A DNA stretch of 64,000 bases from Oscillospiraceae bacterium (GTDB taxonomy: Bacteria; Bacillota; Clostridia; Oscillospirales; Oscillospiraceae), in assembly GCA_021769865.1 (NCBI GenBank), contig JAETSB010000005.1:68219-132218 (forward strand), given 5' to 3'. The translations under genes and the position numbers were made by a program. Below, in pieces: positions 28,716 to 56,590 of this stretch (the first letter of the stretch is position 1; each line of letters opens with the position of its first letter). The notes beneath the pieces were generated by a model, which did no database searches, was not told the origin of the DNA, and saw nothing but the letters and a program-made list of their open reading frames with translations.

Positions 28716-28808
28716 AAAAAAGACCACAAGTCTGGGCGGACCCAAAACTTGTAGTCAACTGTTCAGGCAGTTGGTAGAAACGCTCATCCGATCATGAGCT
28801 TATACAAG
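28716..28808 (-). promoter_or_regulatory. Purine riboswitch, guanine class, with terminator
   Basis: The minus strand carries the aptamer 28808-28748: P1 CTTGTA/TACAAG, P2 GCTCAT/ATGAGC, the invariant GTTTCTACC, P3 AACTG/CAGTT with GG and CC in the two loops, and GACTAC closing. The C in GACTA is the residue that selects guanine over adenine. The P1 3' strand is shared with a terminator stem (28756-28722) followed by TTTTTT. The layout predicts transcription shut-off when guanine is bound. Confidence 0.92.
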
Positions 28809-28826
28809 CCGGTATTTACGGCATCT

Positions 28827-28855
28827 ATCGTATCAAACGGCGGCTCTTTTGTCAA
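28827..28855 (-). promoter_or_regulatory. Promoter of the riboswitch-deaminase transcript
   Basis: TTGACA (28855-28850), 17 bp, TACGAT (28832-28827), minus strand. Confidence 0.7.
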
Positions 28856-36518: not shown

Positions 36519-36618
36519 CTCTCCGCCTCCACCCGAAAGATTGGGAGTTGTCCATGTTTTAATATTGCGCCCCTCGGGGATACAAGAAAAGGCACGATTA
36601 TTTCGTGCCCTTTCCTGT

Positions 36619-36710
36619 TGGCGGAGATGGAGAGATTCGAACTCTCGCGCGCTTTTTAGGCGCCTACTGCATTTCGAGTGCAGACCCTTCAACCACTTGG
36701 GTACATCTCC
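36619..36710 (-). tRNA. tRNA-Ser(CGA), complete, carried by the element
   Basis: 92 nt with encoded CCA. Acceptor GGAGATG/CATCTCC, D arm CCC/GGG, anticodon stem CTGCA/TGCAG around CTCGAAA, long serine variable arm, T arm GAGAG/CTCTC with TTCGAAT. All stems pair. It differs at many positions from the split host tRNA-Ser(CGA) but has the same anticodon, so it can supply the decoding function lost by the insertion. Confidence 0.95.
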
Positions 36711-36733
36711 ACATATTTTCTTTTCCGGGACAT

Positions 36734-36748
36734 CTGTTAGCAAACTGT
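36734..36748 (+). repeat. Putative integrase arm-type site, right end
   Basis: CTGTTAGCAAACTGT, same orientation as 31590-31604, about 90 bp inside the right core. Confidence 0.6.
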
Positions 36749-40125: not shown

Positions 40126-41466
40126 TCAGTCCTTTAATACGTCTACGGACGTTATGCCGTAATATTGAAACAGCGTCACGGCCTCCATCCCGATCCGTTC
40201 CCCGGACACGGCGACGGGCACCGCCGGGGGACAGCTCACCGTGGGCGCGCCGCAGACGCGGCCCAGGCTCTCCTCCGCCGGGACGGTCTCCTGGGGGGCG
40301 AATAGGGCCTCCCGGACGGACAGGACCCGCTCTCCCCTTGCCAGGGGCAGGGCCTCCGCCGGGGCGGCGGGAGCCCGGTTTACCCCCAGGGCGGCGGAAA
40401 CGCGGATAAGGTCTTCCGGGGCGTTCTCCGGCGTGACCATGAGGACCAGATGGTCCCGGTCCGCGTATTCGCACTCCGCGCCGCCCCGGCGGAGGCGTTC
40501 TGCCAAATCCAAGCCCGTCAGGCCCAGCGGGGCCCGGAGGGTCAGCCGGAGGGGGTCGGAGGGCTCTGTCTGCCAGCCGGCGGCGGTCAGGGTTTCCCGC
40601 AGGGAGTCCAGGCGGCGGACGGTCTCCGCCAGCCGGGCGGGGTAATGTTCGGACAAATAGCGGTTGCACAGGTCCAGGGAAGCCAGGGTCAAGTACGACG
40701 GGCTGGTGGACCCGAAGAGGGCCAGGGCCGCCCTGGCCCGGTCCCGGAGACCCGCCGGGGCGGTTTTAGAGAAGTGCAGGTATGCCCCGCCGGTGAGGAC
40801 CGGCAGGGTCTTGTGGGCGGAGTCGCAGCAGAGGTCCGCCCCCTGGTCCAGGGGGTGGAGGGAGGGTTTCAGAAAGCGGAGATAGGCCCCATGGGCGTTG
40901 TCCACGAAAAGCGGCGTCCCGTGACGGCGGCAGACCTCCGCCAGGGCGGGGATGTCCTGGAGGTTTCCCAGGTAGTCGGGGCTGGTAACATAGACGGCGG
41001 CGGGGGGGGCGGACAGGGCGGAGAGGGTCCGGTCCAGGCCCTCCGCTGTGACGGGACAGGCGCAGAGGGAAGAGCTCGCCCCCTCTTCGGGCCAGAGCCA
41101 AAGGGGCTCAAAGTCCAGCAGGGCGGCGGCGTGGACGAAGGACTTGTGGACGTTCCGGGCGGCGGCGATGACGGGGGGCGTCCCGGCAGGACGGTTCTGG
41201 AGGGCCAGGTGAAGCATGGCCTTCACGCACTGGCTGGAGCCCTCTGTGGAGTAAAACGTGGCGGCGGAGCCGAAGAGGGCGGCGGCGTTTTGCTCGCTCT
41301 CGGCGATGATCCCCGCCGCCTCGTAGAGGGAGTCCGCCCCGTATAGTTCCGTGAGGTCCCACGCCTCACAGCCCAGGGGGCCGGAGCCCTTGTGCCCCGG
41401 CATATGAAGCCGGGCCGTGCGGCCAGCGGCGTAGGCGCGGACAAAGTCCGCCACGGGGGTGGTCAT
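40126..41466 (-). CDS. Orn/Lys/Arg decarboxylase-family PLP enzyme
   Basis: 446 residues from ATG 41466. Fold-type I PLP enzyme of COG1982: N-terminal MPGHKGSGPLG, cofactor Asp in FVDNAHGAY (D189), Schiff-base lysine K219 in DSAHKTLPVLTGGA, and a C-terminal part with PPAVPVAVSGERI. Shorter than the inducible decarboxylases and without their wing domain, like Bacillus YaaO/SpeA. The substrate could be arginine, lysine or ornithine. Its ATG overlaps the scfB stop (ATGA), so it is coupled to the SCIFF maturase. Confidence 0.88.
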   Translation of the reverse strand: MTTPVADFVRAYAAGRTARLHMPGHKGSGPLGCEAWDLTELYGADSLYEAAGIIAESEQNAAALFGSAATFYSTEGSSQCVKAMLHLALQNRPAGTPPVIAAARNVHKSFVHAAALLDFEPLWLWPEEGASSSLCACPVTAEGLDRTLSALSAPPAAVYVTSPDYLGNLQDIPALAEVCRRHGTPLFVDNAHGAYLRFLKPSLHPLDQGADLCCDSAHKTLPVLTGGAYLHFSKTAPAGLRDRARAALALFGSTSPSYLTLASLDLCNRYLSEHYPARLAETVRRLDSLRETLTAAGWQTEPSDPLRLTLRAPLGLTGLDLAERLRRGGAECEYADRDHLVLMVTPENAPEDLIRVSAALGVNRAPAAPAEALPLARGERVLSVREALFAPQETVPAEESLGRVCGAPTVSCPPAVPVAVSGERIGMEAVTLFQYYGITSVDVLKD

Positions 41467-42857
41467 GCCTCCTGGCCCTCCGCGTCCTCCGCCAAGGCCG
41501 CTTGCAGCATGATGGCGCACTCCATCCGCTTGCGGAAGAGCTCGCAGCCCGCCTCGTAGACTCCCCGGATGGACCCGGAGGCGTGGTAGGCGTTGGCGGC
41601 GCAGCCGCCGGAGCAGTAGAGTTTGGCCCAGCAGTCCGCGCACTCCGGGCGGGCGTAGGCGTTGCAGGACCGGAACTCCTCCCGGAGGGCGGTATTTGTC
41701 ACGCCGTTCCACACGTCCCCCAGCTTGTACGCCTCCTCCCCCACGAACTGGTGGCAGGGGTACAGGTCCCCCCAGGGGGTGACGGCCATGTACTCCGTGC
41801 CGGAGCCGCAGCCGGAGACCCGCTTGTAAACGCAGGGCCCGCCGGTCAGGTCCAGCATGTAGTGGTAGAAGGTGATGGGGCGGCCCTCCCTGTGCCGTTT
41901 CAGCATCTCCCTGGCCAGCAGCTCGTACTGGTCCTTGACGATCTCCAGGTCCTCCGCCGTCAGGGCTGCCGGGTCCCCCGGGGCGCAGACCACCGGCTCC
42001 ATGGAGAGCTCGGTAAAGCCCAGGTCCGCCATGTGGAAGAGGTCCTTTGTAAAGTCCGGGTTCCGGTGGGTGAAGGTGCCCCGCATATAATAGCGGGTCC
42101 CTCCCCGGGCCTTCACCAGCTCCTGAAATTTGGGGACGATGCGGTCGTAGCTGCCCCTTCCCGCGTAGTCCACCCGGAGGGCGTCGTGGATCTCCTTTCG
42201 CCCGTCCAGGGAGAGGACCACGTTGTCCATCTCCCGGTTGGCGAAGTCGATGACGTCCTCGTCGATGAGCATTCCGTTGGTGGTGAGGGTGAAGCGGAAG
42301 CGCTTGTGACAGGGCTCCTCCCGAGTCCGGGCGTAGGCCACCAGGTCCTTCACCACCTGCCAGTTCATCAGCGGCTCGCCGCCGAAGAAGTCCACCTCCA
42401 GGTTCGTCCGGCTTCCCGAGTGGGCAATGAGGAAATCCAGGGCCTGCTTTCCCACCTCGAAGTTCATGAGGGCCCGGTCGCCATGATACTTGCCCTGGCT
42501 GGCGAAGCAGTAGGAGCAGTTGAGGTTGCAGGTGTGGGCCACGTGGAGGCAGAGGGCCTTCACCACGTCGCCGGAGCGCTCCTTGAAGGTCCCGGCGATG
42601 TCCGCAAAGGTATCGGGGGTGTAGAGCTGCCCGGAGTTCACCAGGGACTCCACGTCGGCGACGCACTCCCGGAGTTCGGATTCCGTCACGTCGGGGCGGT
42701 CCGGGTATTTCTCCAGCAGGGCCTTTACGATCTCCTCCGGCGTGTGGTCCGGGTAGAGGGCGATGACGTCATAGGCCACCTCGTCCACTACGTGGACGCC
42801 GCCGGAGCAGGTGTCCAGAACGATATTGTATCCGTTGAGCTTGTATTGATGTACCAT
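41463..42857 (-). CDS. scfB: SCIFF peptide maturase, radical SAM/SPASM enzyme
   Basis: 464 residues. An N-terminal peptide-recognition domain (RRE-like, about 1-95), radical-SAM cluster motif C110-x3-C114-x2-C117 (HTCNLNCSYC), FFGGEPLMN, and a C-terminal SPASM region rich in Cys (SGCGSGTEYMAVTPWGDLYPC, ECADCWAKLYCSGGCAAN). It installs thioether (ranthipeptide) cross-links on ScfA encoded just upstream. The RBS AGGAGGAC precedes ATG 42857. A hairpin separates it from scfA. Confidence 0.96.
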   Translation of the reverse strand: MVHQYKLNGYNIVLDTCSGGVHVVDEVAYDVIALYPDHTPEEIVKALLEKYPDRPDVTESELRECVADVESLVNSGQLYTPDTFADIAGTFKERSGDVVKALCLHVAHTCNLNCSYCFASQGKYHGDRALMNFEVGKQALDFLIAHSGSRTNLEVDFFGGEPLMNWQVVKDLVAYARTREEPCHKRFRFTLTTNGMLIDEDVIDFANREMDNVVLSLDGRKEIHDALRVDYAGRGSYDRIVPKFQELVKARGGTRYYMRGTFTHRNPDFTKDLFHMADLGFTELSMEPVVCAPGDPAALTAEDLEIVKDQYELLAREMLKRHREGRPITFYHYMLDLTGGPCVYKRVSGCGSGTEYMAVTPWGDLYPCHQFVGEEAYKLGDVWNGVTNTALREEFRSCNAYARPECADCWAKLYCSGGCAANAYHASGSIRGVYEAGCELFRKRMECAIMLQAALAEDAEGQEA

Positions 42858-43130: not shown

Positions 43131-43159
43131 AGCATAGCACAAAGCCGCCGGAAAGTCAA
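43131..43159 (-). promoter_or_regulatory. Promoter of scfA
   Basis: TTGACT (43159-43154), 17 bp, TATGCT (43136-43131); the -35 box overlaps the stop of the flavoprotein gene. Confidence 0.7.
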
Positions 43160-44220
43160 GAGGGCCCTTCGCGGGAGGCCGGAGGCGCCCACTGCGCCAG
43201 CATGTTTTCGGCGAAGCCCTCCAGCCGGGCCTCGATCCCCGGCAGCCTGAGGGCCGCTCCGGCGTCGTTGGCGGTCTCCAGCAGGATGGCGCGGGGAGGC
43301 AGCCGGAAGCCCTTGTTGACGCACAGGGCCGACACCACCTGGCTGGCCACGATGTCCCCGCCGGAGTAGCCGGAGACCACGATGGCGAAGACCGCCTTGT
43401 CCTCGAAGGAGGCGGTACGGTAGAGGGCCGTCAGGCGGTTCACGGCGGCGGTGAGATTGGCGGAGAGGGCGTCGTTGTAGTTGGGACAGAGGAGGACTAC
43501 CCCGTCCGCCTCCCGCAGGGCGGGGAACACCTCCTGGACCATAACGCCGCCGTAAAAACAGCCTCCCCGCTCTCCGAAGTGGAGGCAGGTGGTGTAGGGA
43601 CATCCGGCGCAGTCCTCCAGGGTCCCGTTCCGCAGGCCGATCTCCCGGACCTCGCAAGTCCCCTCGATCCGCTCCCGGACCCGGCCCCAGAGGTCCAGCG
43701 TGTTGGAGGTGGAGCGGCTGGAGGCGTGGAGGGCCAAAATCTTCGGCCGCTCCCGACGGGGAGGCGCGAAGCCCAGCACCCGCCCCGCCAGATCCGACAC
43801 CGCCCGGCGGTACGCCTCCTCCAGGTCACAGCCCCCGTTCCGGGCCTGGACGGTGAAGTTCTGGAGGCCGCCCGTGGCCTCCGCCAGAGGGCGGCCCGGG
43901 AAGGCGCAGCCCGCCATGTTTGCCGCTAGAATCAGCTCCCGCCCCGCCGCTTTGGTGTAGAGGTCCCCGGCCCCGTCGACGACCACGCCGCCCACGCTGC
44001 CCGCTAAGCAGCCCGGGCAGTCCCGCAGCCGGGCCAGGAGGCCGTACAGCTCGGGGCTGACCCCGTTTTCCGGCAGGGAGAAGGCAAAGAGGAGCCGCCG
44101 GTTTTCCAGGGACTCGCCGTCCTGATAAAGCCGGACCGCCCGGTCCGCCAGGGCGGCGCGCAGGGTCTCGCCCAGCCGCCCCTCCAGGGGGCCGGCGACC
44201 AGGGTCAGTTCCCGTTCCAT
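43156..44220 (-). CDS. Iron-sulfur flavoprotein-like NAD(P)H/FMN reductase
   Basis: 354 residues. The C-terminal about 190 residues are an FMN-binding flavodoxin-like fold (ILALHASSRSTSNT phosphate loop, LLCPNYNDALSANLTAAVNR) with a cysteine cluster CAGCPYTTC plus C at GGCFYGG, as in Isf proteins that bind a [4Fe-4S] cluster. The N-terminal about 150 residues form an additional domain I do not recognise (GSVGGVVVDGAGDLYTKAAG). It is the last gene of a three-gene run starting at 50216 and lies 15 bp from the LDH-like gene. Partner and substrate are unknown. Confidence 0.8.
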   Translation of the reverse strand: MERELTLVAGPLEGRLGETLRAALADRAVRLYQDGESLENRRLLFAFSLPENGVSPELYGLLARLRDCPGCLAGSVGGVVVDGAGDLYTKAAGRELILAANMAGCAFPGRPLAEATGGLQNFTVQARNGGCDLEEAYRRAVSDLAGRVLGFAPPRRERPKILALHASSRSTSNTLDLWGRVRERIEGTCEVREIGLRNGTLEDCAGCPYTTCLHFGERGGCFYGGVMVQEVFPALREADGVVLLCPNYNDALSANLTAAVNRLTALYRTASFEDKAVFAIVVSGYSGGDIVASQVVSALCVNKGFRLPPRAILLETANDAGAALRLPGIEARLEGFAENMLAQWAPPASREGPS

Positions 44221-44235
44221 GGCGTCCTCCCGTTC

Positions 44236-45420
44236 TCAGGAAATTTCGTGCAGAGCCCGCTCCGTCTCCCGCAGGCGGGCAAAGAGCGGGTCCGGCAGCT
44301 CTAAGGTCTCCAGCTCCAGGCCCCAGGGCGTGAAGCGGTTTTTGCAGCCGAACCACACGCCCCCCAGGGGCACGGAGCCGCAGTGCCACTCCCCCCGGAG
44401 GGTCAGCAGCAGCTGCATGGCCCCGGAGGCGACGGCGGGGGCCGCGTAGGGCTTAAAGCCCAGGTCCCGGATGCGGAGATTGGCCTCCAGGGTCAGGCGG
44501 GTCAGCTCCTGGGAGAGGGCGTCGTCATAGTGCTGGATGGAGTTGGCGGCCACCAGGCCCTTTCCATGGGGGCCGAAGGTCCGGCCCTGGGTGAGGAAGG
44601 AGGCGAACCGGGGGTCCCGCTTGGCGAAGTAGGCCGCCCGGGCGTTCATCACCCCCAGGCCGAAGCCCTGGACCTGCTCGGGGAGAAGGCCCAGGTGGTC
44701 CGGCTTCCCGTCCGGCCCTAGATTGGAGGCCCGCCACGCCGCCCGGCACAGCGGGTCCACCGGGTCGCTGAGGACGATGAAGAGGCCCTGAAAGCCCGCC
44801 GCCCGGGCCTGCCGGGCGAAGGACTCCGCCAGGGGGCGGTTGGCCTCCAGCTGAGCCATGCGCACGTCCTTGATGCCGCTGCCCACCGCCGGGATGGCCT
44901 TCGTGGCGGCGAACACGAACACGTCGCAGTCGAAAAGGCGTTCCGGGGAAACGGCCTCCACCTCGGGAAGGGCCTGATAATCCCAGGGCCAGGAGATCTG
45001 GCCCATCTCCGCGGTCCACCGGGCCACGGTGTTTTCATTCAGGTCGCAGATGCCGACGGAGGAGATCACATCTCCGCCCAGCAGCTTCACGGCCGTCAGC
45101 AGGGTGCTTCCCACGTCCCCCACGGCCAGGAGGTGGACCCGTTTTTTCCCCGGCTTGGGCGTTACGAAGTCCAGAGCCGCCTCCCGGCGGGGGTGGCGGG
45201 CGTTCACGCCGGTGAGCCGCCCCGCCGCCAGGGCGGCGCGCTGCGCCTCCGTCAGGGCCGGGGCCTCCCCCAGCCGCCGGGGGTCCAGCCAGCGGACGTC
45301 CGCCGCCTCCCCGTTCAGCTGCCGGGGGTCCGTGACGCGCCAGGCGGCGGGGCTCAGGGCGGGGTCCCGCTCTGTGTGATATCGAAAACGTTCAGTCATG
45401 CGCGTCTCATCTCCCGTCAT
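44236..45420 (-). CDS. Lactate/malate dehydrogenase-fold protein with N-terminal extension
   Basis: 394 residues. After about 90 residues of extension comes a Rossmann domain (VHLLAVGDVGSTLLTAVKLL) and the LDH-superfamily landmarks FVFAATKAIPAVGSG, VLSDPVDPLCRAAW, GPHGKGLVAA and a C-terminal half of the right length. The glycine-rich loop is degenerate (GDVGS), and the usual active-site His-Arg-Asp set is not clearly preserved, so it may act on an unusual 2-hydroxyacid or not be a dehydrogenase. Its ATG overlaps the stop of the 1599-residue gene; an alternative ATG is 21 bp downstream. Confidence 0.78.
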   Translation of the reverse strand: MTGDETRMTERFRYHTERDPALSPAAWRVTDPRQLNGEAADVRWLDPRRLGEAPALTEAQRAALAAGRLTGVNARHPRREAALDFVTPKPGKKRVHLLAVGDVGSTLLTAVKLLGGDVISSVGICDLNENTVARWTAEMGQISWPWDYQALPEVEAVSPERLFDCDVFVFAATKAIPAVGSGIKDVRMAQLEANRPLAESFARQARAAGFQGLFIVLSDPVDPLCRAAWRASNLGPDGKPDHLGLLPEQVQGFGLGVMNARAAYFAKRDPRFASFLTQGRTFGPHGKGLVAANSIQHYDDALSQELTRLTLEANLRIRDLGFKPYAAPAVASGAMQLLLTLRGEWHCGSVPLGGVWFGCKNRFTPWGLELETLELPDPLFARLRETERALHEIS

Positions 45421-48400
45421 TTCAAAAGCTCCTTCATCCGGTCCAGCTGCCGCAGGTCGCTCTCCAGACAGATGGAGGCGGAGAGGTTCGGGTCGTATCG
45501 CAGGGCGGCCCCCTTGTCGGGGCTCAGGGGCAGGATCACCGCCTCGCTGAGCCGGGAGAGGGTCAGGTTCCGGGCGTAGCGCTCCCGGTAGGCCCGCTCC
45601 AGGGCCAGGAGAATGTCCCGACTGTTCTCAATGCAGGTCCGGGAGAAGCGGAACACCGCCTCCCGGCCGCACTGGCTGTAAAACCGGGGGAAGGCGTAGG
45701 GCAGGATCAGGTTCACCGCCGGGGTCAGCCCCGGCACGGAGGGGGCCGCCTTGTCCACGGCGTCCCCGCCGATGAAGGGGTACATGGTGGACTCCACAAA
45801 CCAGGCCCGGAGGTCCGGGACGAAGTAGACGCTGTCCACCTTCCTTCCCCGGGCAGCCATCAGGTCCCGGCCCCGGCCGGAGAGAAGGCCCACCACGCAC
45901 CGGTCGATGTCCAGCTTCTCCCGCCGGAAGAGGGGGTCCAGGGCGTTGATGCGGTTGCCGGTGTGGAGCAGGTCGTCCACCAGCATGACGGGGCGGCGGA
46001 AGGAATGAATGGTCCGAATCTGGCTCTCCAGGGGGGCGTAGCCCGGGAAGGGGGCGATGGAGAAGGAGTGGAGGTCCGGGGCAAAGACCTTGTCCGTGTG
46101 GATGGTCTTGGTGACGGTGTTGGGCACGGCGTTGCCCCGGAGAATCTTTCCGAAGGGCACGCACATCTTGGGCCCCAGGACCCGGGGGGTCTGGGGCTCG
46201 GCGGGGACGCCGTTCTCCTCCGTCAGCTTCCGGACCAGGCGGTGGTAGATGACCTCCGCGTTGAGGGACAGCACCAGGGTGCCGGGGTACAAGCCGCACA
46301 CCGCCTCCTGGAGGCGGAGATGGGCCGCCCCCATGGCGGAGAGCACCTGCCGGTCCGAGGCGAAGGGCTCCTTCAAGGTGGTGGGGATGTTCTGCACCAG
46401 CACCGCCGGGGATCGCATGTCCACCAGCAGCAGGGGCTTCGGCGTCTCCAGCCTTGATGGAACGAAGCCCTGGCGGCGGAGTATGTCCAGGCCCGCCGGG
46501 TCCGACGGCCCCCACCAGACGGCGTAGCCGCAGTCGTCCTCCGCCGCCCGGGTCAGGGCCTCCGTCAGCAGGAGCTGGCCGGGGTCGTAGTTCCCCCCGG
46601 GGGCCCTGGCGGCCCAGAGGCCCGTCAGCAGCTGGATCCGACCCGCCGTCCGGGTGCGGACCCAATGGGCCAGCTCCTCGCTGCCGAAGGCGTTGTACAG
46701 CTCTCCCGAGTTGACCACTCGGCCCGTCAAAAAGCCCAGGACCCGGGGCCGGGGACCGTTCGAGCGGAGGAGGAACACGCTGTCCCGGGGGTCCGGGGGC
46801 GGCAGGGGGCCCAGGGCCTCCCCCAGCTCCGCCCAGAGGGCCGGGTCCGGGGCGGCGGCGCGGGCGAAGTCCAGAAGGCTGGCCCGGACCAGCTGCTTGT
46901 ACTGGGGCTCCCGAAGGTAGAGGCTGTTCCGATAGATGAGGTCCTGCACCGTGGGGTCCACCAGGTTGGAGACATCCCGCCCCAGGTCGATGTTCTCCCG
47001 GATGCGGGTGGAGCTGATGTCCTCCAGATGGGTGGGCAGCTGGAGCTGGACCACGCGCCCGGTGATGCAGGAGAGGTCCGCGTCGATCTCCCGGCCCTCG
47101 GCGTCGCTGGAGCGGCGGAAGACAATGTGATTCAGGGAGTGGACGGAGCCCGGGCTGGACGGGGCCCTGTAGGAAGAGGCCCCCGCCACCACGTCGGACC
47201 CCACCACCAGATAGAGCTCCCGGCCCGCGAACACCTGCCGCAGGCGGAGGAGGTCGTCGGGAGTGGCCAGGTTCACGGGGATGTCGTGGGGGAAGAGGTA
47301 CACGCCGAACTCGTCGGCCACGGACATGCTGACGATCTGCCGCCGGATCAGGGAGGGCTGGGCCTTCTTGGACCAGGAGAACTCGTCCACGGCCAGGTAG
47401 ACCTCCATCCCCAGGTCCCGGATGGCGGTGACGATGCCCTTGTGGGAGAGGGAGAAGGGGTCGAAGGTGCCGGGGAAGAAGGCGGCGGCCTTGTCCCGCC
47501 ACTCAAAGCGGAAGGGCCCGCTCTCGATGCGGTGCTTCACGGCGAAGCGGTAGATGTGGGAGAGGGCGGCGGCGGTGTGGAAGAAGGTCAGCTCGCCCCC
47601 CGGCTGCTCGCCGATGAGGAAGAGGAGCTTTTTGGCAATCAGGGTGAAGAGGTCCGTCTTGTCCGCGTAGCTCAGGAAGGGGGAGGCGAAGAGACCCTCG
47701 CCCAGGACCCGCAGGGCCTCCTGCCGCACCGGCTCCATGCAGGAGGCCAGGCCCTTGAGGAGCAGACCCGCCATGCGTTTCCGGCGGCGCTCCAGGGCCT
47801 CCTCCGGCTCGTGAAAGCGCTTGGCGTAGACCCGGTAGTGCTCCAGCAGGGACCCTACGGTCCCCAGGGCCCCCGCCGCCACGCTGGCGCTGGAGGAGGA
47901 GAGGAAGCGCAAGAGCTCGTCCAAGATCTCGTCCAGTTCCCGGGGGGTGAGCCACAGGAGGAACTGCCCCAGGTAGGGGGGAATGTACTGGGAGATCTCC
48001 GACTGGCCGGTCTCCAGGGCCTCGCACAGCTCCACGGCCACCTCGTTGCGCCGGGGGGGCGTCAGCAGGGGGGCCACGTCCAGCAGGGCGCTGCCCGCCA
48101 GGCGGCGGACCACCACGTTTTCGCTGACCTTCATCAGGTTGGAAAAATGGGTGGCAATGTGAAGGGCGGCGGCGGGCTCCCCCCGCCGGGCCTGGTCCAG
48201 CAGGTACTCCACGCCCACGGCCTTCAAAACCCAGGGGGTGGCGGTTTTCAGGTTGTCCAGGAACACGCCGCCGGCGGCGTCCCCCTGGTCCAGCAGTTCC
48301 CGACGGCCGGACGCGTCCAGACCGAGAAGCGTCATCAGCCGGGACTGGAGGTAGAGCAGCGGGGTGGAGGAGGAGCAGTCCGCCGTTTCCACGGCCCGGA

Positions 48401-50216
48401 CGACGGCCTCCCGCTGGGGGAAGTCCGGCTCCAGCACCGGGAGAAGGCGGCGGGCAAGGCGCATGGCGGCGGCCTTCTGGGGGGCCTCGCCGGTCTCCAG
48501 CCACCAGGCGGCGTAGCGGGCCAGCGCCGCCGCGTCCCTGCCGTCGATCCGCTCCATGGGCAGGTTCAGCGCCGTGTTCAGCAGGGCGAAGGCCCCCTCC
48601 GGATCTTCGGCGGCGGGGTCCTGGTAGTGGCGGAAGAGGAGCTCGGAGAACCGGGGAAAGTCCCCGTCGGTGCAGCCGCCAAGCAGTGCGTCCGCCGCCG
48701 TCTTGGCCTGGTAGCGGATCATGCTGATCTGCCGGGGGGTGAGGCGGCGGTCCGGGTGGATGAGCTTTTCCAGGTACTCCGCCCACAGCTCGAAGGGGCG
48801 CTCCTCCTGGGGGCTGGGAGGCGCGCCCTGGGGCAGCTCCTTTTTGTAGCCGGAGAGGAACTTGGAGAGCATCCGACCCATCAGCCCCGCCGCCTGGCGG
48901 CGGATGTCCCCGTCGGGCTGGAGCAGCAGCTCGTAGAGAAATTCCAGGGCCTGCTCCTTCTGCTCCACGGTCCAGTAGGTGAAGTACTCCCGGAACACGG
49001 ACACATAGGCCCGGATGCGGCCGGGGTCCTTCTCCCCCCGGGCCGCCTCCAGGGTGGCGACGAACAGCCGCTCCCGGCTCAGCCGGTGCATCAGGCGGAT
49101 GTTGTGGTCCACCGCCGTCCGCCGCAGGCCCAGGACCACCTCGTCCTCGTTCATCAAAGAGGGGTCCTTCCGGGGCAGGGGCGGCCCCCCGGCGGTCTCC
49201 AGGGTCACATCCGCGCCGAAGCTCTGGAGGTAGCCCTCGAAGTCCCGGAGCTTCACATATACATACTCGTAGCGCCGCCGCTTGGCGGCGTCCACGTTGT
49301 CCAGCTTGGAGAGGATCACGTCAAAGGCGTCCGCCAGGGAGAAGAGCTTCGCCTCCTCCCCGCCGCCGGGGAGGCGCTCCTGTTTCACCCGGAAGTCGGC
49401 GTAGACCAGCACCAACGACTCGGAGGACAGGTTCTCCAGCTCCAGGTCCCAGACGGAGTGATTGGCCGCCACCCGGCCCAGGGCCCCCAGGCCCCGCCAG
49501 GAGAACCACTGGTCCGTGTAGTAGTAGTGGAGATAGGGCACCCGTTCCCCGGGCTTGCAGCCGAACTTGCCGATGTCGTGGCCCGCGGCGGCGGCGGAGA
49601 TGAGCCCCAGGTCGATCTTCCCACCCCCGGCCTTGAAGGCCCGGGAGACCATCATGGACACATGGTGGACTCCGGCAATGTGCTCGCAGGTGCGGAAGGG
49701 GGTGACCTCCCGGCCCAGGCGGAGGAGCTCGTAGACATACTCCTCCCGCCAGCGGCGGAGAAATAAGCGGTAGTCCTCCGCCACGGCGCTTCCCTTCAGC
49801 TCCTCCTCCGTGCAGAAGGCGAAGTCCAGCCAGAAGTCAAAGGGCAGGGACTCCCGCTCCGCGTCGAAGAGGGTCCGCAGGAATTGGAGGAAGCACAGAG
49901 CCCCGTCCCGCTGGACGGGAGTGTGGGCGGGGGCCGCCTGGGGAAAGAGGAGGGAGACCGCCGTCCGGTAGGCGCAGAGGGCCCAGCCCTCCCCCGGCTC
50001 CGGGGCGGCGGCGTCCAGGAGCGGATGGAAGGCCTCCAGCGCCCTTTCACAGGAGATCCGCTCCTCGATGGGCAGCAGGGGGGCCAGCAGGGCGGGCCAG
50101 TCCAGGCCGCCGAAGAGGGCTTCCGCCTCCTCCCGGGGGCGGGAGAGCTTTCGCAGGAACGCCTCTTCCCGGAAGGCGTCTGCCATCGCCGTATACAGGC
50201 TGCTTTGTTGTTCCAT
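45417..50216 (-). CDS. 1599-residue multidomain protein: HD, helical repeats, NadD-like nucleotidyltransferase, GNAT-like and PRTase-like regions
   Basis: An HD phosphohydrolase region lies at about 170-300 (H185, AAGHDIGKF with H213/D214, H253, D274). Residues about 380-890 are helical, HEAT-like. A nucleotidyltransferase follows at about 910-1100, with FFPGTFDPFSLSHKG and ISSTRIREN, the NadD/cytidylyltransferase signature. Residues about 1145-1255 resemble GNAT (ending LRRQGFV). The C-terminal about 250 have a PRPP-binding loop, VMLVDDLLHTGN (1410-1421). All catalytic-looking motifs are present, suggesting nucleotide or NAD-like chemistry, but the reaction is unknown. Start ATG 50216 with GGAGGAAC upstream. 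It leads a run of three closely packed genes. Confidence 0.82.
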   Translation of the reverse strand: MEQQSSLYTAMADAFREEAFLRKLSRPREEAEALFGGLDWPALLAPLLPIEERISCERALEAFHPLLDAAAPEPGEGWALCAYRTAVSLLFPQAAPAHTPVQRDGALCFLQFLRTLFDAERESLPFDFWLDFAFCTEEELKGSAVAEDYRLFLRRWREEYVYELLRLGREVTPFRTCEHIAGVHHVSMMVSRAFKAGGGKIDLGLISAAAAGHDIGKFGCKPGERVPYLHYYYTDQWFSWRGLGALGRVAANHSVWDLELENLSSESLVLVYADFRVKQERLPGGGEEAKLFSLADAFDVILSKLDNVDAAKRRRYEYVYVKLRDFEGYLQSFGADVTLETAGGPPLPRKDPSLMNEDEVVLGLRRTAVDHNIRLMHRLSRERLFVATLEAARGEKDPGRIRAYVSVFREYFTYWTVEQKEQALEFLYELLLQPDGDIRRQAAGLMGRMLSKFLSGYKKELPQGAPPSPQEERPFELWAEYLEKLIHPDRRLTPRQISMIRYQAKTAADALLGGCTDGDFPRFSELLFRHYQDPAAEDPEGAFALLNTALNLPMERIDGRDAAALARYAAWWLETGEAPQKAAAMRLARRLLPVLEPDFPQREAVVRAVETADCSSSTPLLYLQSRLMTLLGLDASGRRELLDQGDAAGGVFLDNLKTATPWVLKAVGVEYLLDQARRGEPAAALHIATHFSNLMKVSENVVVRRLAGSALLDVAPLLTPPRRNEVAVELCEALETGQSEISQYIPPYLGQFLLWLTPRELDEILDELLRFLSSSSASVAAGALGTVGSLLEHYRVYAKRFHEPEEALERRRKRMAGLLLKGLASCMEPVRQEALRVLGEGLFASPFLSYADKTDLFTLIAKKLLFLIGEQPGGELTFFHTAAALSHIYRFAVKHRIESGPFRFEWRDKAAAFFPGTFDPFSLSHKGIVTAIRDLGMEVYLAVDEFSWSKKAQPSLIRRQIVSMSVADEFGVYLFPHDIPVNLATPDDLLRLRQVFAGRELYLVVGSDVVAGASSYRAPSSPGSVHSLNHIVFRRSSDAEGREIDADLSCITGRVVQLQLPTHLEDISSTRIRENIDLGRDVSNLVDPTVQDLIYRNSLYLREPQYKQLVRASLLDFARAAAPDPALWAELGEALGPLPPPDPRDSVFLLRSNGPRPRVLGFLTGRVVNSGELYNAFGSEELAHWVRTRTAGRIQLLTGLWAARAPGGNYDPGQLLLTEALTRAAEDDCGYAVWWGPSDPAGLDILRRQGFVPSRLETPKPLLLVDMRSPAVLVQNIPTTLKEPFASDRQVLSAMGAAHLRLQEAVCGLYPGTLVLSLNAEVIYHRLVRKLTEENGVPAEPQTPRVLGPKMCVPFGKILRGNAVPNTVTKTIHTDKVFAPDLHSFSIAPFPGYAPLESQIRTIHSFRRPVMLVDDLLHTGNRINALDPLFRREKLDIDRCVVGLLSGRGRDLMAARGRKVDSVYFVPDLRAWFVESTMYPFIGGDAVDKAAPSVPGLTPAVNLILPYAFPRFYSQCGREAVFRFSRTCIENSRDILLALERAYRERYARNLTLSRLSEAVILPLSPDKGAALRYDPNLSASICLESDLRQLDRMKELLK

Positions 50217-50320
50217 GGGTTCCTCCGTTCCGCCCGGAGAGGGCCGGTGGTGTTCATATCCACAGTATACCGCAGTTGGCCGCCGGGGGGAAGGGGAAAC
50301 GAGAAAAAACCGCCTTCTTC

Positions 50321-50349
50321 TTGCCGGGCTCCGCCGCGCGTGTTACAAT
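50321..50349 (+). promoter_or_regulatory. Promoter of the DHFR-like gene
   Basis: TTGCCG, 17 bp, TACAAT, divergent from the 1599-residue gene, whose own minus-strand TATACT lies near 50265. Confidence 0.55.
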
Positions 50350-50379
50350 CAGGCAATCATAATTCAGGAGGTTTTGAAG

Positions 50380-50889
50380 ATGAGCGTCTATTTTTACGGC
50401 TGCGTCACCCTGGACGGCTACCTGGCGGCGAAGGACCACAGCCTTCGCTGGCTCCACCAGACCGGGACGGCGGAGGAGACGGGCTATGAGAATTTTTACG
50501 CCCAAATGGACGTGACCCTCATGGGGCGGCGGACCTTCCGGGAGGTGGAGAAGCTGGGGAACCCGGCGGAGGTCTACCCCACGACGGAAAATTATGTCTT
50601 TACCCACCGGCCGCTGGACCGGGCGGGCTTCACCGCCGTCGGCGGAGACCCGGCGGCCTTTGTGGAGGGCCTGGGCCGGGAGAAACACATTTGGGTCGTC
50701 GGCGGGAACACGATTCTGACCCCGCTGCTGGACCGGGACCTGGTGGACCATCTGATCATCCAGGTGGCCCCGGTGCTGCTGGGGGAGGGAATCCCCCTCT
50801 TTACGCAGAGGGAGGCCCTCCGGCGGTTCCGGCTGGAGGCGGCGCGGCAATACGGTCCGTTCGCGGAGCTGGCTTATAGCAGGCTGTAG
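50380..50889 (+). CDS. Dihydrofolate reductase-like protein (RibD C-terminal domain family)
   Basis: 169 residues from ATG 50380 (CAGGAGG upstream). RibD_C fold: MSVYFYGCVTLDGYLAAKD, DVTLMGRRTFRE, IWVVGGNTILTPLL and a strand reading IIQVAPVLLGEGIPLF. Stand-alone members (YyaP/YwjB type) are NADPH-dependent reductases of unknown substrate. It is transcribed alone, divergently from the 1599-residue gene. Confidence 0.88.
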   Translation: MSVYFYGCVTLDGYLAAKDHSLRWLHQTGTAEETGYENFYAQMDVTLMGRRTFREVEKLGNPAEVYPTTENYVFTHRPLDRAGFTAVGGDPAAFVEGLGREKHIWVVGGNTILTPLLDRDLVDHLIIQVAPVLLGEGIPLFTQREALRRFRLEAARQYGPFAELAYSRL

Positions 50890-50950: not shown

Positions 50951-51655
50951 TCAGTACCGGTTCCGGATCACGTCCCGATGGCTCCCATCCTCCAGATCCA
51001 CGAACCGGACGAAGAGGGACACCTTGTTCTCGGGGTGCAGGGCCTCCCAGACCTGGTCCGCCAGGGCCTCCGGCGTCTTGGCGTCCAGGGACACCCGCTC
51101 CGGCTCTCCCTCGAAGGAGGGCAGGGGGGTTCCGTCTCCCATGTAGGTGTGGAGGAAGCGGCCCTCGCCGGGGAGAGGGGCGTCGTAGTGGTAGAAGTAC
51201 CGGCAGCAGCAGGAGGGGTCCCCCTCGGCGCTCTTCAAAATGGAGAGCTGGAAGCTGCCGTCGGGGCTCAGCAGTCCGGAGACGCGGGGGGTGTAATTGG
51301 GCGCGTCCGGCTCAAAGGTCCGGCTTTTCAGGGCCTCGGCAAAGGTGCGGCCCTCCAGGATGTAGTCCCGCACGGTGTCCGTCTGGTCCCCGTTGGTGAC
51401 GATGAGGCCCCGGCCAACCTTCCGCACGGGGTGATAGATGATGAGACTGGGGTCCGTCATCTTGGCGGGATCGTGGGCCTCCGTGCGGATGCCGTCCTCC
51501 GTGGGGACGAAGACCCGGTTCCGGGAGTTCTCGCTGCGGCCCATGATGAAGTACACGGCCACGGCCTGTTTCCCGTCCGCGCTCTTCCCCAGGACGATGC
51601 CCCGCCCGGGGTAGGGGTTGCCTTTCAGCAGGTCGAGAAGGTTCAGCTGTTCCAT
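50951..51655 (-). CDS. purO: IMP cyclohydrolase, PurO type
   Basis: 234 residues from ATG 51655 (GGAGGACGG upstream). PurO family: NPYPGRGIVLGKSADGKQAV, VYFIMGRSENSRNRVF and a C-terminal LFVRFVDLEDGSHRDV. It closes FAICAR to IMP, the last step of purine synthesis, using a fold unrelated to PurH. The enzyme is best known from archaea and also occurs in Clostridia. It ends the pyrimidine operon, 23 bp after a metallopeptidase gene, so purine and pyrimidine steps are co-transcribed. Confidence 0.88.
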   Translation of the reverse strand: MEQLNLLDLLKGNPYPGRGIVLGKSADGKQAVAVYFIMGRSENSRNRVFVPTEDGIRTEAHDPAKMTDPSLIIYHPVRKVGRGLIVTNGDQTDTVRDYILEGRTFAEALKSRTFEPDAPNYTPRVSGLLSPDGSFQLSILKSAEGDPSCCCRYFYHYDAPLPGEGRFLHTYMGDGTPLPSFEGEPERVSLDAKTPEALADQVWEALHPENKVSLFVRFVDLEDGSHRDVIRNRY

Positions 51656-51678
51656 ATCCGTCCTCCGCAGTAAAATAT

Positions 51679-52202: not shown

Positions 52203-52631
52203 TTAAAGGTTCTTTTTCCCCTTGGCGGTGTCGCAGTAGGCGCAGCGGTAGACGTGCTTCTCCGGGTCACTGAGGAGGAAGACCGCGTCCAGCTGGGGCT
52301 CCGCCACGGTGATGCACCGGGGGTTCTTGCAGCGGATGATGTTCACCAGCTTCTTCGGCGGCTCCAGGCGGCGCTTCTCCACCCGCTTGCCGTCCCGGAT
52401 GATGTTGACGGTGATCTTGTCGTCGATATAGCCCAGCACGTCCACGTCCACCTCCATGGGGGAGTCGATCTTGATGATGTCTTTTTTCCCCATGCGGCCG
52501 CTGCGTACGTTTTTGATGATGGCCACGGAGCAGTCCAGCCGGTCCAGGTGGAGGTACTTGTAAATGTCCATGCTCTTGCCCGCCTGGATGTGATCCAGGA
52601 CGACGCCGTTTTGGATGCTGTCGATGTTCAT
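52203..52631 (-). CDS. pyrI: Aspartate carbamoyltransferase regulatory subunit
   Basis: 142 residues. N-terminal allosteric domain (NGVVLDHIQAGKSMDIYKYL) and C-terminal zinc domain with CKNPRC and CAYC, the four zinc ligands. It binds nucleotide effectors and holds PyrB trimers together. It lies 17 bp downstream of pyrB. Presence of PyrI indicates feedback control at the enzyme level. Confidence 0.96.
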   Translation of the reverse strand: MNIDSIQNGVVLDHIQAGKSMDIYKYLHLDRLDCSVAIIKNVRSGRMGKKDIIKIDSPMEVDVDVLGYIDDKITVNIIRDGKRVEKRRLEPPKKLVNIIRCKNPRCITVAEPQLDAVFLLSDPEKHVYRCAYCDTAKGKKNL

Positions 52632-52648
52632 AGAGTCCTCCCCTTTCT

Positions 52649-53569
52649 TCAGACGCAGATGTCCAGCAGCTTCAGGATCAGCGCCATGCGGATGAACTTG
52701 CCGTTTTTCACCTGCTTCCAGTAGGCGGCCCGGGGGTCCCTGTCCACCGCCACGGAGATCTCGTTCACCCGGGGCAGGGGGTGGAGGATGGAGAGGTCCG
52801 GCTTGGCGTTTTCCAGCTTCTCCGGGGTGAGGATATAGCTGTCTTTCAGGCGGAGGTAGTCCTCCTCGTTGAAGAAGCGCTCCTTCTGGACCCGGGTCAT
52901 GTAGAGGATGTCCAGGTTCGGGATGACGCTTTCCAGGCTGTCGGTCTGCTGGTAGGGGATGCCCCGCTTTTTCAGGGCCTCCTCCTTCACGTACCGGGGG
53001 AGTTTCAACTCCGTGGGGGAGATGAGGACAAAGTTGATGTTCTCATACCGGCTGAGGGCGTTCACCAGGGAGTGGACCGTCCGGCCGAATTTCAGGTCTC
53101 CGCAGAAACCGATGGTGAAGCCGTCCAGCCGCCCCTTCTCCCGGTGGATGGTCAGCAGGTCCGTCAAAGTCTGGGTGGGGTGGTTGTGCCCGCCGTCCCC
53201 GGCGTTGATGATGGGGACCTCGCTGAACTGAGCGGCGGCGTAGGGCGCGCCCTCTTTCGGGTGGCGCATGGCGATGATGTCGGCGTAGCAGCTCACCGTG
53301 TGGACGGTGTCCCCCACGGTCTCCCCCTTGGCGGTGGAGCTGGAGGCGGCCTCGGAGAAGCCCAGGACGCCGCCCCCCAGGGCCAGCATGGCGGACTCGA
53401 AGGAGAGGCGGGTCCGGGTGGAGGGCTCGAAGAAGAGGGTGGCCAGCTGCTTGTGGGCGCAGGCGTCCTGGTACTTGGCGGGGTTTGCGAGGATGTCCTC
53501 CGCCGTGGCGATCAGCTCGCTGATCTCCTCCACGGTGAGGTCCGTGACGTCAATGATGTTTCTGGGCAT
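52649..53569 (-). CDS. pyrB: Aspartate carbamoyltransferase catalytic subunit
   Basis: 306 residues from ATG 53569 (AAAGGAGCG upstream; the frame is open further but without family similarity). Carbamoyl-phosphate site [15 protein letters not shown], then [20 protein letters not shown] and HPLPRVNEI. Catalyses carbamoyl phosphate plus aspartate to carbamoyl-aspartate. Confidence 0.97.
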
Positions 53570-53592
53570 AGGCGCTCCTTTCTTTGGTCCGG

Positions 53593-54228
53593 TCAATCTC
53601 TCCAGCTTTCGTCCGACGGGTTCGCCCGGAACGCTTTCAGGCGCTGGATGTCCTCCGGTTTGATCTTCCCCTCCGCCGCGGCGATGTCGCACACCGCGTC
53701 GAAGTTGGAGAGGCTGTAATTTGTCACGTTGGCCGCCGCCAGCCGGTCCAGGCCCTTTTGCAGGCCGTAGGTGAAGATGGACACCACGCCCAGCACCTCC
53801 GCCCCGGCCTCCCGCAGGGCTTCCACCACGTCGATACAGCTTCCGGCGGTGGAGATCAGGTCTTCGACAACGACGACCCGCTGTCCGGGCTCCAGCTTCC
53901 CCTCGATGCGGTTCTGCCGCCCGTGGTCCTTGCCGCTGGAGCGGACGTAGCCCATGGGCAGGCCCATGAGGTGGCCCGCGATGGCGGCGTGGGCGATGCC
54001 GGCGGTGGAGGTGCCCATGAGGACCTCCACATTGGGATAGTGCTTGCAGATCAGGTCCACCAGGCCCTCCTCCACGTGGGTCCGGACCTCCGGCGCCGTG
54101 AGGGTCAGGCGGTTGTCGCAGTAGATGGGGCTCTTGATGCCGCTGGCCCAGGTGAAGGGCTCGTCCGGGCGGAGGAACACCGCGCCGATGGAGAGCAGGT
54201 CGTGGGCAATGGTCTGTTCACGGGTCAT
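53593..54228 (-). CDS. pyrE: Orotate phosphoribosyltransferase
   Basis: 211 residues. PRPP loop [20 protein letters not shown] and the flexible-loop signature [17 protein letters not shown] are complete. Converts orotate and PRPP to OMP. Start ATG with AAAGGAGTAC upstream, 16 bp after pyrF. Confidence 0.96.
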
Positions 54229-54244
54229 GAGGAGTACTCCTTTC

Positions 54245-54949
54245 TCATCCTAAAAATTCACTTACCGCCCGGCGGTACGCCTCCACCGGGTCCGGGTCCT
54301 TCGTGATGGGACGGCCCATGACAATGTAGTCACAGCCGTTTTTCGCCGCCTGTTCTGGGGTCATCACCCGCTTCTGGTCCCCCGCGTCCCCGCCGGCGAA
54401 GCGCACGCCGGGGGTGACGGTGCAGAAGCCCGCCCCGCAGCGCTCCTTGACCAGGGCGGCTTCCAGAGGGGAGCAGACCACGCCGTCCAGGCCGCTGGCG
54501 GCGGCGTTTCGGGCGTAGGAGAGGACCGTCTCCGCCATAGGGGTGTCAATCAGCAGCTCGTTTTTCAGGGCCTCCGCGTCGGTGGAGGTGAGCTGGGTGA
54601 CGGCGATGAGCAGGGGCCGCGTTCCGTCGGGCCGGGTCAGGCCCTCCAGGGCCGCCCTCATCATGGCGGAGGTCCCGGCGGCGTGGAGGTTTACCATGTC
54701 CACGTCCAGGCCGGAGAGGACCGCCATGGCCCGCTTCACCGTGTTGGGAATGTCGTGGAGCTTCAGGTCCAGAAAAATCCTGTGTCCCCGGGCCTTGATC
54801 TCCCGGACGACGGACGGGCCCTCGGCGTAGTAAAGCTCCATGCCGATTTTCACAAAGGGTTTTTCCTCCCCGGCGGGAAACCGGTCCAGAAACCGCAGGG
54901 TCTCCTCCCGGGTGGGAAAGTCCAGGGCGATGATGACGTCCTTAGCCAT
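54245..54949 (-). CDS. pyrF: Orotidine 5'-phosphate decarboxylase
   Basis: 234 residues. The catalytic block [16 protein letters not shown] (Asp-x-Lys-x2-Asp) and the phosphate-binding C-terminus ([20 protein letters not shown]) are present. Decarboxylates OMP to UMP. Overlaps pyrD by 8 bp. Confidence 0.96.
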
Positions 54950-55859
54950 GGTGCGCTCCTCCTGTCAAATCAGAAATATGTTCCACGCCCAGCCGCTCAC
55001 AGAGGTTGGGCAGGTCCTCGATGATGGTTTTGCAGGCCCAGGGGTCCCGCAGGTTCGCCGCCCCCACCTCCACGGCGGAGGCCCCCGCCAGCATCATTTC
55101 GGCGGCGGTCTCGGCGCTGTCCACGCCGCCGCAGCCGATGATGGGCAGCTTCACGGCCTCGTACACGTCCCATACCATCCGCAATGCCACCGGGAAGACG
55201 GCGGGGCCGGAGAGGCCCCCGGTGCGGTTGGCGAGAAGGGGCCGCTTCGTGTTCAGGTCGATGCGCATGCCCAGCAGGGTGTTGATGAGGCACAGGCCGT
55301 CGGCCCCTTCCGCTTCACAGGCTCGGGCGATCTCCGCGATGTCCGTCACGTTGGGGCCGAGCTTCAGGAAGACGGGCTTTTTGGTCGCCGTCCGGACGGC
55401 CCGGGTGACGGCGGCGGCGCTGTGGGGGTCCGAGCCGAAGTTCTTCCCCCCGGCGTGAACGTTGGGGCAAGAGATGTTAACCTCCAGGATTTTGACCTGC
55501 TCCGCGTCTTCCAGCATCCTGCAGTTCTCCGCGTACTCCTCCAGGGAGAAGCCGCAGACGTTGGCGATGACCGGGCCGTGGAAGATCTTCGCGATGTTGG
55601 GGAGCTCCTCCCGGAGGACCGCCTCCATGCCGGGGTTCTGGAGGCCCACGGCGTTCAGCATCCCGGCGGCGGACTCAGCGATGCGGGGCTGGGGATTGCC
55701 GGGGCGGGGGGCCCGGGTGGTGCCCTTCCAGGAAAAGGAGCCCAGGATGTCCAGGTCGTACAATTCCGCGAATTCCCGGCCATAGCCGAAGGTCCCGGAG
55801 GCAGGGACAATGGGGTTTTTCAAGGTCACGCCCGCCAGCGTGACGGACAGGTCTACCAT
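54942..55859 (-). CDS. pyrD: Dihydroorotate dehydrogenase, catalytic subunit (class 1B)
   Basis: 305 residues from ATG 55859 (AAAGGAGGAC upstream; an in-frame upstream start at 55898 lies inside pyrK). FMN-barrel enzyme with [33 protein letters not shown] and [20 protein letters not shown]. The cysteine in SCPN is the catalytic base of class 1 enzymes. Works with PyrK, so NAD is the electron acceptor. Confidence 0.96.
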
Positions 55860-56590
55860 ACGATGTCCTCCTTTTGGAACACGGGCCCGTCCTTGCACAC
55901 CCGGCGGGGGCCCTGTTTCGTCTGGATGGTGCAGCCCACGCAGGCCCCGAAGCCGCAGGCCATCCGGGCCTCGAAGCTGAACTGCCCCCCGGAGAGCTGT
56001 GGCAGGGCGTGGACGGCTTTCAGCATGGGCGTGGGGCCGCAGGCCAGGACATACTGCCCTTCCGGCAGGGTTTTCAGCACGTCTGTGACAAAGCCTCTCG
56101 TCCCCAGGCTTCCGTCCTCCGTGGCAATATGGACCTCCAGGCCCAGGGCGGCGAACTCCTCCCGGTAAAATGCGTCCGCTTTCGAGCGGAAGCCCAGGAC
56201 GGCCCTGGGCCGCCGCCCCGCCGCGATCATGCGTTTCGCCAGGCCGTAGAGCGGCGCGATGCCGATGCCGCCGCCTGTCAGGACGGCGTTTTCCGGCACG
56301 GCGGAGAGATCGAAGCCGTTCCCCAGGCCCGACAGCGTGTCCAATTCCGTTCCGGCGGGGAGGCGGACCAGTTGCCTCGTGCCCGCTCCCGCCTCTTTTA
56401 CCAGGAGCAGGAGACGGCCCTCATCCCAGTCGCAGACGGAGATGGGACGGCGAAGGAACTTCCCCGGCAATTCGAGATTGACAAACTGCCCCGGGGCCGT
56501 GACGGCGGAGGTATCCCCGGCGAGGGTCAGCTCCCACACGTCCCCGGTCAACTGCCGGGCTTGTTCCAGAGTAAATGCGGATTTCGTCAT
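55853..56590 (-). CDS. pyrK: Dihydroorotate dehydrogenase electron-transfer subunit
   Basis: 245 residues. Ferredoxin-reductase fold with the FAD motif RPISVCD and a nucleotide-binding stretch NAVLTGGGIGIAPLYGLAKR. The C-terminal [2Fe-2S] site is CGFGACVGC plus a Cys eleven residues on (C-x4-C-x2-C-x11-C). Passes electrons from PyrD FMN to NAD. Overlaps pyrC by four and pyrD by seven bases. Confidence 0.96.
   Translation of the reverse strand: MTKSAFTLEQARQLTGDVWELTLAGDTSAVTAPGQFVNLELPGKFLRRPISVCDWDEGRLLLLVKEAGAGTRQLVRLPAGTELDTLSGLGNGFDLSAVPENAVLTGGGIGIAPLYGLAKRMIAAGRRPRAVLGFRSKADAFYREEFAALGLEVHIATEDGSLGTRGFVTDVLKTLPEGQYVLACGPTPMLKAVHALPQLSGGQFSFEARMACGFGACVGCTIQTKQGPRRVCKDGPVFQKEDIVW

Follow-up and report, generated by a model that had tools for sequence, protein, structure and literature searches.

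Three genes at one locus

The stretch of DNA analyzed here, referred to as the window, comprises 64,000 nucleotides from an Oscillospiraceae bacterium (GenBank assembly GCA_021769865.1, contig JAETSB010000005.1, positions 68,219 to 132,218 of the forward strand). Its subject of interest is a set of three adjacent genes, encoding a multidomain protein (the giant), an oxidoreductase resembling lactate and malate dehydrogenases (LDH-like) and a flavoprotein (Table 1). An earlier reading made from the sequence alone had described these three open reading frames (ORFs), a 4-bp ATGA overlap between the LDH-like start and the giant's stop, and a spacing of 15 bp between the LDH-like and flavoprotein genes; all were found as given. 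It had also proposed that the genes form a system, and a neighbourhood survey bore this out, as the trio recurs across several families. The trio is a true three-gene system, with an arrangement beyond chance. Loci and genomes are labelled below with L and G numbers, respectively.

Table 1. Features of the three-gene locus and its surroundings in the window.
Feature	Position	Strand	Evidence or remark
Giant gene	45417-50216	minus	ORF 1599 aa, ATG start; homologues; structure models
LDH-like gene (LDH/MDH-like oxidoreductase)	44236-45420	minus	ORF 394 aa, ATG start; ~90-residue N-terminal extension
Flavoprotein gene (FMN_red)	43156-44220	minus	ORF 354 aa, ATG start; extra ~150-residue N-terminal region
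HD metal-dependent phosphohydrolase domain, giant residues ~160-290	49347-49739	minus	H179, H213-D214, H230, H253, D274
HEAT/ARM-type helical superhelix, giant residues ~357-900	47517-49148	minus	AlphaFold2 and Foldseek
Nicotinate mononucleotide (NaMN) adenylyltransferase (NadD)-type nucleotidyltransferase domain, giant residues ~908-1102	46911-47495	minus	Fold comparison
GNAT-fold domain, giant residues ~1114-1267	46416-46877	minus	Fold comparison
Type I phosphoribosyltransferase (PRTase)-like domain, giant residues ~1284-1530	45627-46367	minus	Signatures PNTVTKxxHT and VDDxxHxGxR; Foldseek, PF00156, alignment
Four-Cys motif CX2CX4CX8C (C204, C207, C212, C221)	43558-43611	minus	In the flavoprotein; invariant in 49-member alignment
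SCIFF peptide, 46 aa	42914-43054	minus	3' of flavoprotein gene
SCIFF radical SAM maturase	41463-42857	minus	TIGR03974, 751 bits
RibD C-terminal-domain reductase	50068-50889	plus	PF01872; divergent, beside giant
IMP cyclohydrolase-like protein	50951-51673	minus	PF07826; upstream of giant
Apparent pyrimidine operon run	52203-57924	minus	By reading, except DHODB-type subunit; upstream of giant

Domain architecture of the giant

The giant consists of a helical N-terminus, an HD domain, a HEAT-type superhelix, a NadD-type domain, a GNAT fold, a PRTase-like fold and a helical tail. The five domains named in the sequence-only reading were all recovered by profile searches or by structure prediction with Foldseek. 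Its further claim, that every key motif was intact, did not hold for the acetyl-CoA motif of GNAT, the FDPxHxGH motif of NadD or the classical phosphoribosyl pyrophosphate (PRPP) loop. The motif sets used for these counts (104 giants in most cases) are redundant and mostly from Oscillospiraceae, and the distant sequences L263, L267 and L268 are more variable in their motifs than most.

The HD domain has the metal ligands of its superfamily (H...HD...D), and the residues listed for it in Table 1 are invariant across 46 giants, 25 of which matched PF01966 (best value 1.9e-7). The HD/HDxGK pattern occurs in 103 of 104 giants, with L267 missing it by one Gly while retaining the His and HD, and two further signatures are nearly universal (NHSxWDLE, 104/104; YxDFRxK, 101/104). 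When the 46 giants were compared with HD profiles, 11 families were listed, including DVU_1551, TIGR00295 and HDIG types, and none of them was named YqeK. The scaffold that follows was modeled by AlphaFold2 with a pLDDT of 91.4, and Foldseek returned HEAT/ARM proteins for it, while its Pfam HEAT matches were weak.

The NadD-type domain has the alpha/beta nucleotidyltransferase fold of NadD, with altered signatures. F[DN]PxHxGH is found in none of 104 giants; 103 carry FFPGxFDPFxx[SG]H[KR] instead. DEF[SA]WSK and GxDVxxxAxxY each occur in 102 of 104, and I[ST]SxxIR, corresponding to the ISSTxIR motif, in 101 (V replaces I in L263 and L267, and L240 is degraded). The top profile match among solved structures, VPA0413 (3h05), likewise has Ser for the first His. 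The Trp that packs on the pyridine in NadD is Tyr in the giants. On TIGR00482 (cut-off 112.45 bits), 13 giants from 12 genomes scored 31-59 bits, the window's own giant scoring 39.3, while canonical NadDs encoded by 11 of the same 12 genomes scored 125-204 bits. Since these 11 genomes have a canonical NadD above the cut-off elsewhere, a housekeeping NadD role for the giant was ruled out. In the window's genome the canonical NadD lies in a 412-aa frame (C26:81621-82220), the downstream part of which gives an HD match (C26:81207-81539). As a separate observation, G127 (98% complete) has no NadD above the TIGR00482 cut-off, only the giant and a short match; this gap may reflect assembly loss or another NAD route.

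The GNAT fold was recovered in the giant, and the acetyl-CoA loop [QR]xxGx[GA] was absent from all 98 giants in the columns for residues 1195-1225. This domain is probably devoid of acetyl-CoA chemistry and looks non-catalytic. For the PRTase-like domain, Foldseek matched xanthine and adenine PRTases with E of 6e-5 to 1e-3 and TMt of 0.4-0.5, the Bacillus subtilis xanthine PRTase giving E 6.1e-5, prob 1.00 and TMt 0.48. PF00156 matched 16 of 46 giants (best value 0.0012), and a search of the region against solved structures reached 0.26 at best. PNT[VI]TKxxHT is present in 98 of 104 giants. The classical PRPP loop, D[DE]xxxTGx[TS], is present in none of the 104, the loop reading VD[DTE]xx[HNDQ]xGx[RKQ] in 95. 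Both the adenylyltransferase and the PRPP loop of the giant are variants.

The best NCBIfam matches of the giant fell far under their cut-offs (34.1 bits vs 150; 33.8 bits vs 112.45), and we claim no membership of any tested family for either the giant or the LDH-like protein. Among 398 genomes from the phylum, a profile of the PRTase region was positive in 8, each time inside a giant-size open frame of 1573-1667 aa; neither a standalone version of this domain nor an alternative architecture was found in the 398 genomes at E 1e-4.

The two redox partners

The LDH-like protein scored under every family cut-off tested, including PF00056 (22.8 bits, cut-off 27) and TIGR01771 (30.1 bits vs 303.55). 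Its profile matched the L-lactate dehydrogenase 4m1q in the PDB at E 1.8e-7, chiefly over the NAD-binding Rossmann half. Four motifs are well conserved: the GDVG loop (86/86), GPHG (85/86), the DvRm Arg pattern (81/86) and GLGVM[NH]xR (76/86). Judged by eye against the active-site residues of LDH, the protein retains the catalytic His and the substrate Arg, and the Asp of the triad is apparently Met. L-lactate and malate dehydrogenases share with it the NAD-binding half, the conserved Arg (DvRm) and the downstream GPHG His, whereas the catalytic half barely aligns and the scores stay under cut-offs.

The flavoprotein matched PF03358 with 71.5 bits (cut-off 24). Its CX2CX4CX8C motif was found in 76 of 77 flavoproteins, the four Cys being likely Fe-S ligands, and its N-terminal region is conserved in the 49-member alignment. 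No match was obtained to NCBIfam at E 1; against solved structures the single sequence reached 0.041 at best, and the profile gave nothing at E 0.01. NADPH-dependent FMN reductases and Isf share the PF03358 domain and, like this protein, Isf has four Cys; the spacing of these differs, however, since the Isf motif is compact and starts CX2CX2C, and the extra N-terminal region is a further difference. The label Isf-like is loose, given the CX2CX4CX8C spacing of the four Cys.

Distribution and co-inheritance

Among 60 relatives, a full or truncated giant was found in 25 genomes, including the window's own, all of them within its genus (37 genomes). The 23 relatives outside the genus had no giant, and the remaining matches of this search spanned the NadD region only. 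A sample of 291 genomes from the class contained 25 with the giant (the window's own included), 24 with the LDH-like gene and 23 with the flavoprotein gene; a 26th match to the giant, in G192, is a 236-aa NadD-like frame. In none of these genomes was either redox gene found without the giant. Where a partner was missing, the giant was partly found with neither partner (G246), or the contig ended inside the LDH-like gene with no flavoprotein gene (G308). Co-occurrence with the giant gave Fisher P values, with kinship ignored, of 3e-34 for the LDH-like gene and 4e-32 for the flavoprotein gene.

We also analyzed named loci, i.e., the best 80 of 200 confirmed relatives, with 45-92% identity to the giant. 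Three Oscillibacter giants at 91-92% identity are among those listed; L075 and L076 are truncated at contig ends, and L105 has an internal stop. At least 3.5 kb of downstream sequence was available for 65 of the 80, and of these 55 had the LDH-like gene, 54 both partners and 53 both on the giant's strand. When the remaining 11 were traced genome-wide, the LDH-like gene was present in 10 of 11 genomes, as was the flavoprotein gene, G061 lacking both; the partners lie side by side elsewhere in the genome for 9 of the 10 loci lacking both.

Giants of 34-41% identity are present in other families. Twenty distant loci were examined and the trio occurs in 19, being contiguous in 17 and interrupted by inserted genes in L221 and L222; the exception is L240. 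Outside the class, the trio is present in 5 of 6 loci, the sixth being L266, and the PRTase-region profile was positive in 15/22, 4/6 and 5/35 genomes of three small orders. Loci fetched later added further trios (L294, L295 with its flavoprotein gene cut by the contig end, L296, L303, L304 and L305) and several incomplete views: the giant and LDH-like gene at a contig end (L298 and L165), the LDH-like and flavoprotein genes at a contig start (L300), and contigs ending inside or just past the giant (L301 and L302). Mirror-tree correlations were 0.92-0.95 for 75 taxa and 0.88-0.94 for 276 pairs outside the named loci; they are uncorrected for species phylogeny and count only as co-inheritance.

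Two outcomes would have spoken against the sequence-only reading: a trio adjacent only here, and homologues lacking the PRPP-loop and NadD motifs. The former is excluded by the trio's occurrence in several families. The latter are mostly absent, the NadD and PRTase-region signatures being kept, with L240, L297 and L299 as exceptions that lost the NadD ones. Since the three genes almost never separate across distant clostridial lineages, they probably do one job, and it is one that none of the family libraries searched has named.

Second copies of the giant

The three exceptions are second giants without redox neighbours, carried by G224 (L240), G267 (L299) and G744 (L297), all of one family. 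DEFSWSK, GxDVxxxAxxY and ISSxxIR are missing from all three and FFPGxFDPF from two, while the HD and PRTase-region signatures are kept. Ten other giants that bear partners or lie at a contig end retain DEFSWSK and ISSxxIR, with single pattern misses elsewhere (strict FFPG in L294, L296 and L304; PNTVTK in L298; VDD in L304), and the cut frame of L165 does not include the HD part. As the partnerless copies lost the NadD signatures, the NadD-type domain appears to be the part of the giant tied to the redox partners. This loss may, however, be a single event in one family, and L266 has kept its NadD signatures while no partner was seen close by.

A candidate pathway and its alternatives

The sequence-only reading, a nucleotide or NAD-cofactor modification pathway with redox steps, stays the most economical, and we tentatively favour a sharper form of it, at somewhat below even confidence: the trio would be a dedicated pathway for synthesis and editing of an NAD-type dinucleotide, with its own redox partners. 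Predicted folds, conserved motifs, gene order and co-inheritance are what was observed, and from them we infer every reaction and what the product is. The C-terminal PRTase-like domain would couple a free base to PRPP, or handle such a mononucleotide, and the NadD-type domain would then move AMP from ATP to the mononucleotide to give an NAD-like dinucleotide. The HD metallo-hydrolase would cut wrong or surplus dinucleotide, as does the YqeK domain fused to NadD in JCVI-Syn3A. The GNAT-fold domain could serve as a structural or ligand-binding insert, and the HEAT superhelix could position the active sites and dock the partners. Finally, the LDH-like protein, as an NAD(H)-binding oxidoreductase, and the Fe-S flavoprotein might carry out redox on, or with, the product.

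The make-and-edit part of this proposal comes from mycoplasmal NadD-YqeK, which matches the giant's pairing of HD and NadD-type domains. The HD domain of that protein hydrolyses NaAD (nicotinate adenine dinucleotide) analogues that NadD can form, and the fusion of YqeK to NadD in JCVI-Syn3A provides a precedent for proofreading (PMC9426524). The giant likewise has its HD phosphohydrolase and NadD-type domains on a single chain, and the ordinary NadD of the window's genome, with HD in its 412-aa frame, has the same pairing. The giant differs in being ~4 times longer, in its added HEAT, GNAT and PRTase parts, in having HD first rather than last, and in its altered HxGH. It may well work most like a NadD-YqeK enlarged by a PRTase and served by two redox partners, an analogy we hold with slightly less than even assurance.

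Several observations weigh against the pathway. In the giants, Ser or some other residue stands in for the first His of HxGH, and the Thr of the PRPP loop is not conserved, so adenylylation or PRPP chemistry may be changed or lost. Xanthine PRTase is likewise without the usual loop Thr. PRTases of this type act on purines and not on nicotinate. No clear LDH-like or flavoprotein gene accompanies the giant in G061, and L266 (G674), with NadD signatures intact, has no partner in the 50 kb searched (19 + 31 kb), its flanks L306 and L307 containing no trio gene. Clustering of neighbours at 33 loci revealed no fourth conserved gene, only the trio being general; the greedy ORF calling behind it overlooked some genes, and L080, for example, is listed without the trio that direct search found there. 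No Rfam match at the gathering threshold lies near the operon in the window or in 8 of the 20 distant loci then fetched.

The nearest relative of the C-terminal fold bears on what such a product might be. The xanthine PRTase of B. subtilis (1y0b, 6w1i) has the same fold, whereas the giant has other invariants (PNTVTKxxHT, VDDxxHxGxR) and the domain occurs only within the giant. Because xanthine PRTase is nearest, the base could be one other than nicotinate; that the giant builds a new NAD-like dinucleotide of this kind, a private redox cofactor of the LDH-like protein and Fe-S flavoprotein linked to the ammonia and glutamate metabolism of anaerobes, is a distinctly speculative extension that we consider improbable.

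A different function is suggested by neighbouring genes in several lineages. An NADP-type glutamate dehydrogenase (GDH) gene directly follows the flavoprotein gene in L223, L229, L235 (where it is cut by the contig end) and L239, the type being given by the NCBIfam name for L229 and by similarity for the others. A different GDH type occupies this place in L238, and L294 has a GDH there too. Further downstream, GDH lies at 2.4-2.6 kb in L096, L108 and L116 and at 4-5 kb in L300 and L303. In L221 and L222 a split glutamate synthase, accompanied by Amt on the opposite strand, is inserted between the giant and the LDH-like gene; for two short pieces of glutamate synthase, identified by reading, no match was obtained at 1e-20. 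L231-L233 have a serine dehydratase pair immediately upstream and L115 has one further away, and GltA paired with an FAD/NAD-binding subunit is directly upstream in L234. With such neighbours, the giant could regulate the metabolism of ammonia, glutamate or NADPH as a switch that modifies and hydrolyses nucleotides in the manner of GlnD, which also combines HD with a nucleotidyltransferase, and the redox partners would report redox state. We regard this as doubtful. The glutamate, ammonium and serine-deaminase pattern is a post hoc lead in some lineages: GDH was found in 8 of the 106 first loci and in 3 of 15 fetched later (L294, L300 and L303, all of the same family as L223), and the other distant loci listed have unrelated neighbours. 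Moreover, the nucleotidyltransferase of GlnD is of the polymerase-beta type, whereas that of the giant has the NadD fold, and neither a receiver-type nor an ACT domain turned up in the family scans.

A further alternative is that the acceptor activated by the nucleotidyltransferase is not a nucleotide, with the PRTase fold serving merely as a ligand site. CoA and citrate-lyase prosthetic-group pathways pair GNAT with adenylyltransferase-like domains, and in the giant a GNAT fold adjoins the NadD-type domain, phosphopantetheine adenylyltransferases are among the matches, and the PRPP loop is altered. We think this unlikely, as matches to NadD and nicotinamide mononucleotide adenylyltransferase are stronger by fold, the profile ones include the ISSxxIR...YI...LY part, and the GNAT motif is absent. 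Salvage or damage repair of NAD(P)(H), in which faulty NAD species would be cleared or restored by the HD and NadD-type domains and abnormal reduced forms re-oxidised by the oxidoreductases, would fit the proofreading precedent of YqeK and the NAD-binding LDH-like partner, and is nevertheless very unlikely given a distribution (25/291 class genomes) too patchy for housekeeping repair and a PRTase fold that it leaves unexplained.

If a dedicated pathway does make or edit an NAD-type molecule, it would be a second dinucleotide chemistry in these anaerobes beside housekeeping NAD, and large proteins of Oscillospiraceae and other families that no curated family covers would gain a function. The carriers are some anaerobic clostridia, gut species included. 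The giant joins HD, HEAT, NadD-type, GNAT-fold and PRTase-fold parts in a fixed order; each fold is individually known, and the system appears to be new as a whole. The statement that no characterised pathway has this set stands in that no curated family spans the giant and no description of the domain set or the trio was found in searches of open-licence literature, on which alone its unpublished status rests.

Other genes in the neighbourhood

Other links were considered and set aside. A phage-defence role was rejected as none of the three proteins matched a PADLOC profile at E 0.01. A link to the adjacent SCIFF genes is not supported: none of 106 other loci carried the maturase, and peptide and maturase were absent from 105 loci, a set to which L008 (the window's own place cut short), 24 others with flanks of ~1.5 kb or less and some loci ending at contig ends set limits. 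The pyrimidine genes, a YgjP-like gene and the IMP cyclohydrolase were each near the giant in only 6-7 of 106 loci, nearly all of them close relatives. The RibD C-terminal-domain reductase was present in 8 of 106. A T-box and tRNAs in distant loci sit away from the operon. Elsewhere in the window, a protein of the DUF6548 family of unknown function (PF20185) is encoded at 36024-36743 and a purine riboswitch aptamer (RF00167, 46.6 bits) lies at 28732-28827, both on the minus strand.

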